A stretch of DNA of 64,000 nt from Halanaerobium saccharolyticum. Lineage in GTDB: Bacteria > Bacillota > Halanaerobiia > Halanaerobiales > Halanaerobiaceae. Shown in pieces: positions 37,796 through 49,222 of this stretch (position 1 is its first letter; the number at the start of each line of letters is the position of its first letter). The notes under the pieces are model-generated. The model searched no databases, was not told the origin of the DNA, and saw only the letters and a list, made by a program, of their open reading frames with translations. A program made the translations under genes and the position numbers. The stretch spans positions 1 through 64,000 of the forward strand of contig NZ_QLME01000003.1 of NCBI RefSeq assembly GCF_003259895.1, written 5' to 3'.

Positions 37796-37824
37796 TTGAA
37801 GCGACTAAACAAATGTGTTATAAT
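37796..37824 (+). promoter_or_regulatory. Promoter of the OLE RNA
   Basis: TTGAAG at 37796-37801 (starting one base after the ispA stop), a 17-bp spacer, and TATAAT at 37819-37824 with an extended TGT. The predicted start is near 37831, where the RNA's terminal pairing begins. Confidence 0.7.
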
Positions 37825-37830
37825 TAGTTA

Positions 37831-38385
37831 AAATGCAGATGGTGCAGTATTCTAGTCAGCATACTATCTTTGAAGGCGGGCCTAAAAATCCGTCAACGGG
37901 CATATCGATGAAGTTCTTTGTAATGGCTGCTGACGCCCAGTTGGGGGCCATTGCAGAGAGATAAGGGCTTGGGGCGATCCACAACGGCATGTGGGCGTTG
38001 ACCCCTTTCCCGCGGAGGCCTGGTCGAGTTATTATATACATAGCAAGGCCAGGTTCACCTGTTTTAACCGTAAGGTTGAACAGTGTAGCCTGCTTTGAAG
38101 TGGTACTGGAGACAGTAGCAAAACACAGGTGCCTGGATCCAGCCCTGGGTTGAACCTGCTGGAAACTTGTACTGCAAAAGAAGCTAGGAGATAGTTTAAA
38201 TGCTGTTAAGGAAAACTTCTAGACTGTCCAGAAGGGGTGTAATAGGGATTAAAGTGTGTTCTTAGTGGTAATTCAGCTCTGCAGAGGGAGACCCTGCAGC
38301 GGAAATTTAAAGAGAAATCTCCCGAATGGCGACAGACGGGAATTTCCGGGGAAAACCTGCTGGACCTATGACACAGCATTTATCT
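37831..38385 (+). ncRNA. ole: OLE RNA (ornate, large, extremophilic)
   Basis: A stretch of about 555 nt without a credible gene, clearly more GC-rich than its surroundings and full of short self-complementary segments. The ends can pair (AAATGC at 37831-37836 with GCATTT at 38376-38381). It lies exactly between ispA and an OapA-like membrane-protein gene that is followed by dxs, the known OLE arrangement. OLE RNA forms a membrane ribonucleoprotein with OapA and is linked to stress from cold, alcohol and Mg2+ in Bacillus halodurans. The class comes from context, size and composition; I could not run a covariance model. End points are approximate. Confidence 0.85.
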
Positions 38386-38428
38386 ATTATATTACCATCT
38401 GTTATTTTATTAATTGAGGTGAATATTT

Positions 38429-46935: not shown

Positions 46936-48039
46936 ATGGCAGATGCTAAATTAAATAAGTATGCAGAATTACTGGTTAACTATTCTCTGGAAGTTAAAAA
47001 GGGAGATCAGGTTTTAATTCAGGGAGAAGATGTCAGCAAAGATTTAATTAAAGAAGTTTACAAAGAAGTACTTAAAAACGGTGGACATCCGCTGGTAATA
47101 ACTAAATTTGAAGAACAGGCAGAACTTTTTTATAAATATGCTTCAGAAGAACAGCTTAATTACAGTGCTCCTTTTATCAAACATCTAATGGAAAATGTTG
47201 ATGCCTCTCTAAGGATTTTAGGCCACAATAATACTAAAAATCTGGCCGGTGTTGATCCAGAAAAAATAAAGAAGCATTCAATTGCCCAAAAAGAAATTAG
47301 CGAAATTCTGATGAACAGAGCGGCTGAGGGAAGTTTGAACTGGAATATTTGTCAGTTTCCTACTCATGCTGATGCTCAGGAAGCAGGGATGTCTTTAGGT
47401 GATTATAGAGAATTTGTTTATCAGGCCTGTCATCTTAACAAAAAGGATCCTGTTGCTTACTGGACAGAATTCGGTAAAGAACTGGAAAGAATTGCAAAGA
47501 TTTTAAATCAGAAAAATGAGCTGCATTTTATTTCTCAGGAAACGGATTTAAAATGTAAGGTTGAAGGTAGAACCTGGATTGCTGATAAGGGTAAGGAAAA
47601 TTATCCAGGAGGGGAAGTTTTTACCGGGCCAATTGAAGATAGTGTTGAAGGAATAATTAGATTTTCTTTTCCGGGAATTTACAGCGGTAAAGAAATTGAA
47701 GATATAAGACTGGAATTTAAAAATGGTAAGGTGATTAATGCTTCTGCGGCTAAAGGTGAGGAGTTATTACATTCATTGCTAGATACAGATGAGGGATCGC
47801 GATATGTAGGAGAAGTTGCAGTTGGCTGTAATCAGGGAATAACAGAATTCACCCGAAATATGCTGTTTGATGAGAAAATTGGTGGAACAATTCATTTAGC
47901 CTTAGGACGCAGTTATCCAGAAACTGGAGGAGAAAACAACTCTACAATCCACTGGGATATGCTCTGTGATATGAAAGACGGTGGAGAAATTTATGCTGAT
48001 GGTGAATTGATCTATCGTGATGGTAAATTTATAATTTAG
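46936..48039 (+). CDS. Aminopeptidase, M29 family
   Basis: A 367-residue thermophilic-type M29 metallopeptidase (AmpS/PepS/aminopeptidase T) that removes N-terminal residues and needs two metal ions, often Co2+ or Zn2+. The metal-binding region is at the C-terminal half: PGGEVFTGPIEDS (near 229), GEVAVGCNQGITEFT, GTIHLALGRSYPETGG (near 316) and STIHWDM (near 337). The ATG follows AGAAGG. A promoter for the downstream RNA-like element lies within its last 40 bases. Confidence 0.88.
   Translation: MADAKLNKYAELLVNYSLEVKKGDQVLIQGEDVSKDLIKEVYKEVLKNGGHPLVITKFEEQAELFYKYASEEQLNYSAPFIKHLMENVDASLRILGHNNTKNLAGVDPEKIKKHSIAQKEISEILMNRAAEGSLNWNICQFPTHADAQEAGMSLGDYREFVYQACHLNKKDPVAYWTEFGKELERIAKILNQKNELHFISQETDLKCKVEGRTWIADKGKENYPGGEVFTGPIEDSVEGIIRFSFPGIYSGKEIEDIRLEFKNGKVINASAAKGEELLHSLLDTDEGSRYVGEVAVGCNQGITEFTRNMLFDEKIGGTIHLALGRSYPETGGENNSTIHWDMLCDMKDGGEIYADGELIYRDGKFII
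48007..48035 (+). promoter_or_regulatory. Promoter within the end of the aminopeptidase gene
   Basis: TTGATC at 48007-48012, a 17-bp spacer and TATAAT at 48030-48035. The start near 48042 would transcribe the rod-like structure at 48061-48276. Confidence 0.55.
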
Positions 48040-48041
48040 TG

Positions 48042-48276
48042 CAATACTGATAAGCTTATTATTTTCAAAACAAAATTATAAGCTCTTTCCATAAAACTTT
48101 TAAAGAGAAAGTAGAATTCATATCTCACTTAAATCAGGTTTCCTGCCCGATTACCACCTCCTGTGGCACGGGCAGCTCAAAACCTCGTTTTTTTCGGCCT
48201 GATTTAAGTTCAATAATCATTAACTCTCTCTAATAAAAGTTTGTAAGTCAACTCGTTATAAATTTGTTTTGAAAAT
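48042..48276 (+). ncRNA. Rod-shaped structured RNA candidate, 6S RNA-like
   Basis: The 370-bp gap holds a nested inverted structure. The outer arms 48061-48081 and 48256-48276 pair at 20 of 21 positions. Next come 48094-48101/48235-48242 (8 bp), 48104-48108/48227-48231, then unpaired strands of 14 nt (48113-48126) and 13 nt (48210-48222). A perfect 12-bp stem 48127-48138/48198-48209 follows, with a top hairpin 48143-48149/48169-48175. A long closing stem, a central bubble and a terminal stem are the shape of 6S RNA, which mimics an open promoter and binds sigma-A polymerase. A MITE-like element is the main alternative. I cannot match conserved 6S bases by eye. Confidence 0.45.
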
Positions 48277-48297
48277 ATAATAATTTAGCTATATATT
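48269..48297 (+). promoter_or_regulatory. Possible promoter of the nucleoside salvage operon
   Basis: TTGAAA at 48269-48274, a 17-bp spacer and TATATT at 48292-48297. Its -35 lies in the 3' arm of the rod structure. No purine riboswitch was found before punA. Confidence 0.45.
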
Positions 48298-48409
48298 TTT
48301 ATAAATTATAAATTTACAATCAGATAGTTTTTTGGAGAAGTTTTAACTAAATTTTTTTAGATTGATTTTAGAGAAAAATAAAAAATTACTAATTTGGAGG
48401 GATTAAATT

Positions 48410-49222
48410 ATGATTAAGGATATTAAAAAGAATGCTCAGATTATTTCTGAACAGCTTGATTATAAGCCGGAGATTGGTCTTGTTTTAGGTTCTGGACTCG
48501 GGGTAATGGCAGAGGAAATTGAAAATCCTGTTTATATAGATTATGGTAAACTAGAACATTTTCCTGTTTCGACAGTAGAGGGTCATGCTGGCAGATTTGT
48601 TATTGGGGAATTAGAAGGAAAAAAAGTTATTGCTATGCAGGGAAGGACCCACTATTATGAAGGTTATTCCATGCAGGAACTGGTAATGCCTGTTAGGATT
48701 ATGAAAGAGGTTGGAATAGAAAAATTGATTTTAACCAATGCCGCCGGGGGAGTTAATGAAGAATTTAGTGCCGGTGAATTTATGATAATTTCTGATCATA
48801 TAAATTTAATGGGAGATAATCCACTAATAGGTGAAAATTATGAGGAATTTGGTCCGCGTTTTCCTGATATGTCAGAAGCCTATAATAAAGAACTGATTGA
48901 AGTGGCTGAAAATGTAGCTCGAGATAATGGAATATTAACTCGTAAAGGTGTTTATGCTGCTGAATCAGGGCCCAGTTATGAAACACCAGCAGAAATAAAA
49001 TATCTAAGGACTATTGGTGCTGATGCAGTTGGGATGTCAACTGTTCCAGAAGTAATTGCGGCCAATCATATGGGACTTGGAATTGTTGGAGTTTCCTGTG
49101 TAACAAATATGGCTGCTGGAGTATTAAATCAGCCCCTAGATCATAAAGAAGTTGTTGAAATAGCGGAAAAGGTAAGACCTGATTTTATTAAATTAATGAG
49201 GGGTATTATTAAAAATATTTAG
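48410..49222 (+). CDS. punA: Purine nucleoside phosphorylase
   Basis: Cleaves inosine and guanosine with phosphate to the free base and ribose 1-phosphate. The 270-residue trimeric-type enzyme shows VLGSGLGVMAEE (near 23), the GRTHYYEGY segment (near 73), NAAGGVNEEF (near 111), ESGPSYETPAEI (near 185) and GADAVGMSTVPE (near 200). AGGGATTAAATT precedes the ATG. It is the first gene of an operon for nucleoside and nicotinate salvage. Confidence 0.93.
   Translation: MIKDIKKNAQIISEQLDYKPEIGLVLGSGLGVMAEEIENPVYIDYGKLEHFPVSTVEGHAGRFVIGELEGKKVIAMQGRTHYYEGYSMQELVMPVRIMKEVGIEKLILTNAAGGVNEEFSAGEFMIISDHINLMGDNPLIGENYEEFGPRFPDMSEAYNKELIEVAENVARDNGILTRKGVYAAESGPSYETPAEIKYLRTIGADAVGMSTVPEVIAANHMGLGIVGVSCVTNMAAGVLNQPLDHKEVVEIAEKVRPDFIKLMRGIIKNI

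Follow-up and report, generated by a model that had tools for sequence, protein, structure and literature searches.

A multicopy rod-shaped element with a Y-shaped tip in Halanaerobium: a probable MITE with pairing kept in DNA

Integron attC sites fold into rods at the DNA level, with bubbles, arms that vary as long as they stay paired, and strand-specific unpaired bases. Single-stranded transposition of the Y1 type is not known to make target duplications. REP/REPIN sequences and IS200/IS605-derived palindromic elements (GTAG- and CGTC-tagged repeats, PMC3733652) are dispersed palindromes with strand-specific DNA hairpins. Prokaryotic MITEs, of which ERIC/IRU, Correia, RUP and QMITE have been reviewed, are short, AT-rich, non-coding and intergenic, with a stable stem-loop fold, terminal inverted repeats and, in young copies, direct repeats (PMC10969869).

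The family described here is like MITEs in all of these respects. What it has of its own is a Y-tipped core with unpaired motifs of the same strand sense, kept by covariation across genera of the phylum; ends that change while the core stays, with no partner IS found; and, in one genome, insertion just upstream of −35 boxes. With attC sites it shares the rod-like DNA fold, the bubbles, the freely varying paired arms and the strand-specific unpaired bases, but it has target-site duplications and terminal repeats and not cassette junctions. Strand-specific DNA hairpins and dispersed palindromes are likewise common to the family and to the REP/REPIN and IS200/IS605-derived elements, but the relatives of our element have target duplications, and an IS200/IS605-type palindromic element, for which insertion without duplication is expected, was rejected for that reason. 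We consider it likely that the copy at 48057-48290 is a mobile DNA element of the MITE type whose pairing is kept at the DNA level.

The rod and its insertion site

The window is the whole stretch of 64,000 nucleotides that was analysed. A sequence-only reading had described in it an inverted structure with paired outer arms, an internal bubble and a perfect 12-bp inner stem capped by a single hairpin. The structure is present at 48061-48276, and the pairing of the arms, the bubble and the 12-bp stem are all confirmed in the sequence; the cap instead consists of two adjacent hairpins, side by side, so that the tip of the rod is Y-shaped. The features of the locus are:

46936..48039, + strand: upstream gene, peptidase family M29 (PF02073, E 1.7e-106)
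48057..48290, + strand: element copy, delimited by similarity to other copies (paralogous matches start at 48057-48060)
48061..48081, + strand: left outer arm of the sequence-only reading, folding with 48256-48276
48109..48226, + strand: conserved core with internal bubble, 12-14 bp helix and two tip hairpins (covariance models R1, 115.1 bits, and R2, 104.3 bits)
48110..48122, + strand: left strand of the conserved bubble, CTARNATTCAT-like, conserved across sites
48127..48138, + strand: 5' strand of the perfect 12-bp helix, from the sequence; all 14 model pairs of the helix covary
48143..48175, + strand: tip hairpin 1, loop CTCCT (family loop NTCST), from folding and covariation
48179..48193 (approximate), + strand: tip hairpin 2, loop CTCGT (family loop NTCST), from folding and covariation
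48198..48209, + strand: 3' strand of the 12-bp helix, from folding and covariation
48215..48225, + strand: right bubble strand, with an ATTCATYAAG-like motif that reads in the same sense as the motif of the left strand; conserved across sites
48256..48276, + strand: right outer arm, folding with 48061-48081
48302..48327, − strand: inverted copy of positions 48012-48038, from the 3' end of the M29 peptidase gene (alignment score 22; the highest score in 300 shuffles is 16)
48410..49222, + strand: downstream gene, purine nucleoside phosphorylase family (PF01048, E 3.8e-56)

Folded as RNA, 48007-48297 reaches −69.2 kcal/mol in comparison with −41.9 ± 4.7 kcal/mol in 200 dinucleotide shuffles (z −5.9), none of which was as stable (0/200), and the core folds as single-stranded DNA on both strands (z −6.2 and −5.1). 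Complementarity extends beyond both rod ends, to about 48012 and 48327, and on the left this outward pairing runs into the end of the M29 peptidase gene. The conserved parts that remain unpaired are NTCST in both hairpin loops and the ATTCAT-like sequence on both bubble strands, all of the same strand sense. The element in the window contains no ORF of at least 60 aa. The promoter motifs reported earlier, TTGATC-N17-TATAAT and TTGAAA-N17-TATATT, do exist, the first of them within the upstream peptidase gene, but promoter-like motifs are not clearly in excess (5, in comparison with 2.8 ± 2.1 in shuffles). No terminator-like site was found in the window, and a free-standing promoter or terminator was rejected, its signals being at chance level.

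The rod is absent between the M29 peptidase and phosphorylase genes in 11 of 11 other genomes of the genus. Three of these (G004, G006 and G010) have clean empty sites, with the peptidase stop codon followed by the phosphorylase ribosome-binding site within about ten bases. Left-arm-like sequence is found at the site in G001, G008 and G009, accompanied in G001 by the outer right arm; judged by eye these are deletion remnants, but they could instead be precursors. The upstream gene differs in G005 and G002, where the M29 peptidase gene is broken or missing before the phosphorylase gene (L102 in comparison with L106 and L111).

Copies, ends and target-site duplications

The sequence-only reading had named a MITE as its alternative, with multiple genomic copies as the check. 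BLAST found diverged copies of the rod elsewhere in the same genome and in seven congeners. Model R1, built on an alignment of 14 copies whose structure shows compensatory changes in 24 of 34 pairs, identified 11 copies in the source genome, with no further match below E = 1; among the congeners, four have 6–9 copies, three have 1 and four have 0. Across the order, R1 has matches in 7 of 17 genera. Model R2, which was built from R1 matches and is thus biased towards the R1 structure, finds members in 17 of the 59 class genomes, some of them with bursts of near-identical copies, and across the phylum in 24 of 398 genomes and 21 of 266 genera. Class genomes have up to at least 62 copies each; all copy counts are minimum values, as scoring covered a limited number of candidates in each genome. 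Four loci from a DNA-pattern search gave no R2 match, a result of little weight, since the pattern had a spacer one base longer than that of the commonest form.

Where the copies of a genome are near-identical, the element has clear ends. Copies in G025 run from GGTTTGCCCACAAAAAGG to CCTTTTTGTGTTTGAATC, with direct repeats of about 7 bp outside, and the ends of the G013 burst are CAGGAGTTTCCCC / GGGGAAAGTCCAG. Direct repeats of at least 7 bp, mostly 8–11 bp, flank 27 of 29 G013 copies, in comparison with 1.7% for left and right flanks taken from different copies; for A-type ends, repeats of at least 6 bp (6–7 bp) are found in 10 of 17 copies, with 10% expected by chance. Young relatives duplicate 6–11 bp of AT-rich target. 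The MITE alternative is thus supported: the family has dispersed copies and no coding capacity, and its relatives have terminal inverted repeats and target-site duplications. The "21-bp terminal repeats" proposed for the window copy, on the other hand, differ from the terminal repeats that young relatives carry. In that copy the terminal inverted repeats are degenerate, the target-site duplication is not recognisable and the original ends can no longer be made out; the copy is old and probably no longer mobile, and the element is non-autonomous.

A DDE transposase acting in trans would have moved the element. End-pattern searches and gene neighbourhoods, followed for a subset of the ends, gave no transposase with the same ends; what shared these ends was MITE copies, partial copies and deletion derivatives. 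A phage or plasmid carrier gave no match. Genera have the core in common but not the ends, and the core could therefore be a passenger. Short core-less versions occur in G013 (L152, L162, L166, L170 and L280), several of them with target duplications. Their loss of the core fits deletion between short direct repeats; if these derivatives transposed without it, the core is not needed for movement.

Some copies are clustered. In G039 (C1:1940001-1990000; L179-L181), at least 15 copies lie in one orientation, mostly about 2.1–3 kb apart, between repeated RHS/YD-like gene modules whose ends vary, the units of the array being RHS-like modules. Duplication of these modules may have spread the element, or the element may help them recombine; by eye, no lagging-strand orientation bias is evident among the G039 copies. 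At L084:4001-4302, two tandem cores are 184 bases apart, and L093 has a degraded second copy in the same place.

Covariation and the level at which pairing is kept

An RNA stem under selection would favour the G–U intermediate. In the family, double changes affect 32 of the 34 model pairs, and the covariation score is 0.672 in comparison with 0.179 for shuffled and at most 0.141 for slid versions. Over the 34 pairs in 68 distinct sequences, 91% are Watson–Crick, with 51 G–U and 54 A–C, whereas the same count in 6S RNA from 26 genomes of the class gave 130 G–U and 2 A–C. The phylum-wide set has 66 G–U and 79 A–C, and nine subfamily consensuses together have 286 Watson–Crick, 3 G–U and 4 A–C pairs. 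The family makes no distinction between the two transition mismatches, which is what one would expect of pairing that matters in DNA or is repaired there. As the two are equally rare here, unlike in 6S RNA, we infer that pairing is kept at the DNA level and not in RNA. On covariation alone the family would have been classed as a new structured RNA; that candidate was rejected because the G–U test contradicts it, very strong as the covariation is. A strongly covarying "RNA-like" structure can thus be a property that a mobile element has at the DNA level, and the ratio of G–U to A–C separates DNA-level from RNA-level pairing.

The preferred interpretation of the sequence-only reading had been 6S RNA, which the rod resembles in length and in its rod shape with an internal bubble. 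The symmetric bubble, the very stable fold and the conservation of same-sense loop and bubble motifs would all suit an RNA that mimics an open promoter, be it 6S RNA or a different free-standing regulatory RNA. The 6S model (RF00013), however, does not match the rod at its gathering score or even at E ≤ 5, and no other family in Rfam 15 matches at that threshold, which also ruled out these families. A separate 6S gene of this genome lies on contig C5 (101 bits, the sole strong match of the model), and 54 of 59 genomes of the class have a single 6S gene, whereas the rod is present in 11 copies and missing from this site in all 11 congeners. Together with the dispersed, multicopy occurrence with target duplications and a G–U to A–C ratio of 51:54 rather than 130:2, this led us to reject 6S identity, and a regulatory RNA of any such kind has very little chance of being the explanation. 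A full-length OLE RNA (RF01071, 443.6 bits) lies in the window at 37823-38414 (+); this RNA and the relatives at class level would agree with an origin in Halanaerobiales.

The fold of a mobile element might also act within host transcripts, on the stability or processing of the mRNA or on termination beyond the upstream gene. Effects on mRNA are known for ERIC and Correia elements (PMC10969869), and in this genus the element lies in the direction of transcription at 11 of 13 sites with co-directional flanking genes. The absence of G–U tolerance argues against such a role, as do the G013 copies, which lie upstream of promoters facing either way, and the window, where a terminator-like site is lacking; we regard it as quite improbable.

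The family core of about 118 nt retains the same Y-shaped fold by Watson–Crick covariation without G–U preference. In the explanation that we favour, a MITE-type element with its pairing kept in DNA, the core would be kept as folded DNA, either single strand or cruciform, that is recognised or handled on one particular strand, and motifs of the same sense in two loops and two bubble strands would follow from such one-strand recognition. Our searches found no function for the core fold. That the core is specifically recognised as folded DNA is plausible, although we lean slightly towards doubting it; should movement depend on the fold, ordinary inverted-repeat transposition would be linked to folded-DNA recognition.

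Outer arms and choice of target

Template switching is a known route to making, extending and repairing hairpins (PMC8794818). At several sites in the genus of the window, the right flank contains the end of the upstream gene as an inverted copy, in some cases including the stop codon. None of 300 shuffles reached the score at L065, L067/L091, L069/L077, L070 (the window copy) and L074; the signal is weaker at L076, L081 and L087 (1–4 of 300 shuffles) and absent at the other sites of the genus. The outermost right arm of the window copy probably comes from template switching: during replication, the end of the peptidase gene would have been copied, inverted, into the right flank, which would have lengthened the rod. 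The left side is coding and not free to change, so the copying that survived would have run from left to right.

Template switching alone could keep the arms complementary without selection for the fold. The complementarity would then be a mere by-product, with a fold of no function and constraint on the loop and bubble sequences only, and both the inverted gene-end copies in the outer arms and the ability of template switching to make and repair hairpins (PMC8794818) fit this, with the missing G–U preference being compatible with DNA copying. Among copies at least 95% alike, however, 141 stem changes are single-sided and 1 is double, and double changes come to dominate with divergence, which indicates that compensation is stepwise and not the result of simultaneous copying. 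The bubbles, moreover, stay at fixed places and are not repaired to perfect pairing, and we consider the by-product explanation unlikely.

One orthologous site carries two arm-plus-core versions in different species (L064 and L085 in comparison with L075, L092, L099, L100 and L145), each followed by an apparent remnant of the right arm of the other version.

The insertion sites in G013 point to a preference in the choice of target. An outward promoter-like sequence with its −35 box 8–18 bases from the element edge was found in 22 of 30 insertions, in comparison with a mean of 3.4 and a maximum of 9 in 100 shuffles; the 8–18-base range was picked after a first histogram of the same copies and the test is therefore not independent, although the contrast is still large. 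Such placement is not clear in the A-type set (5 of 17, mean 2.3) and was seen in 0 of 5 cases in G147. Placed upstream of −35 boxes, the insertions suggest that targets are chosen so as to spare promoters. We put forward only tentatively, as a rather doubtful extension of the MITE explanation, a phylum-wide family with a transplantable Y-shaped fold that the mobilisation machinery reads as folded DNA and targets to positions just upstream of sigma-A promoters; if true, this would be a transposition module distinct both from plain TIR elements and from the known single-strand systems. At the G013 loci L182, L183, L191 and L199-L218, the target duplication stands directly before an outward-facing −35 box of sigma-A type.
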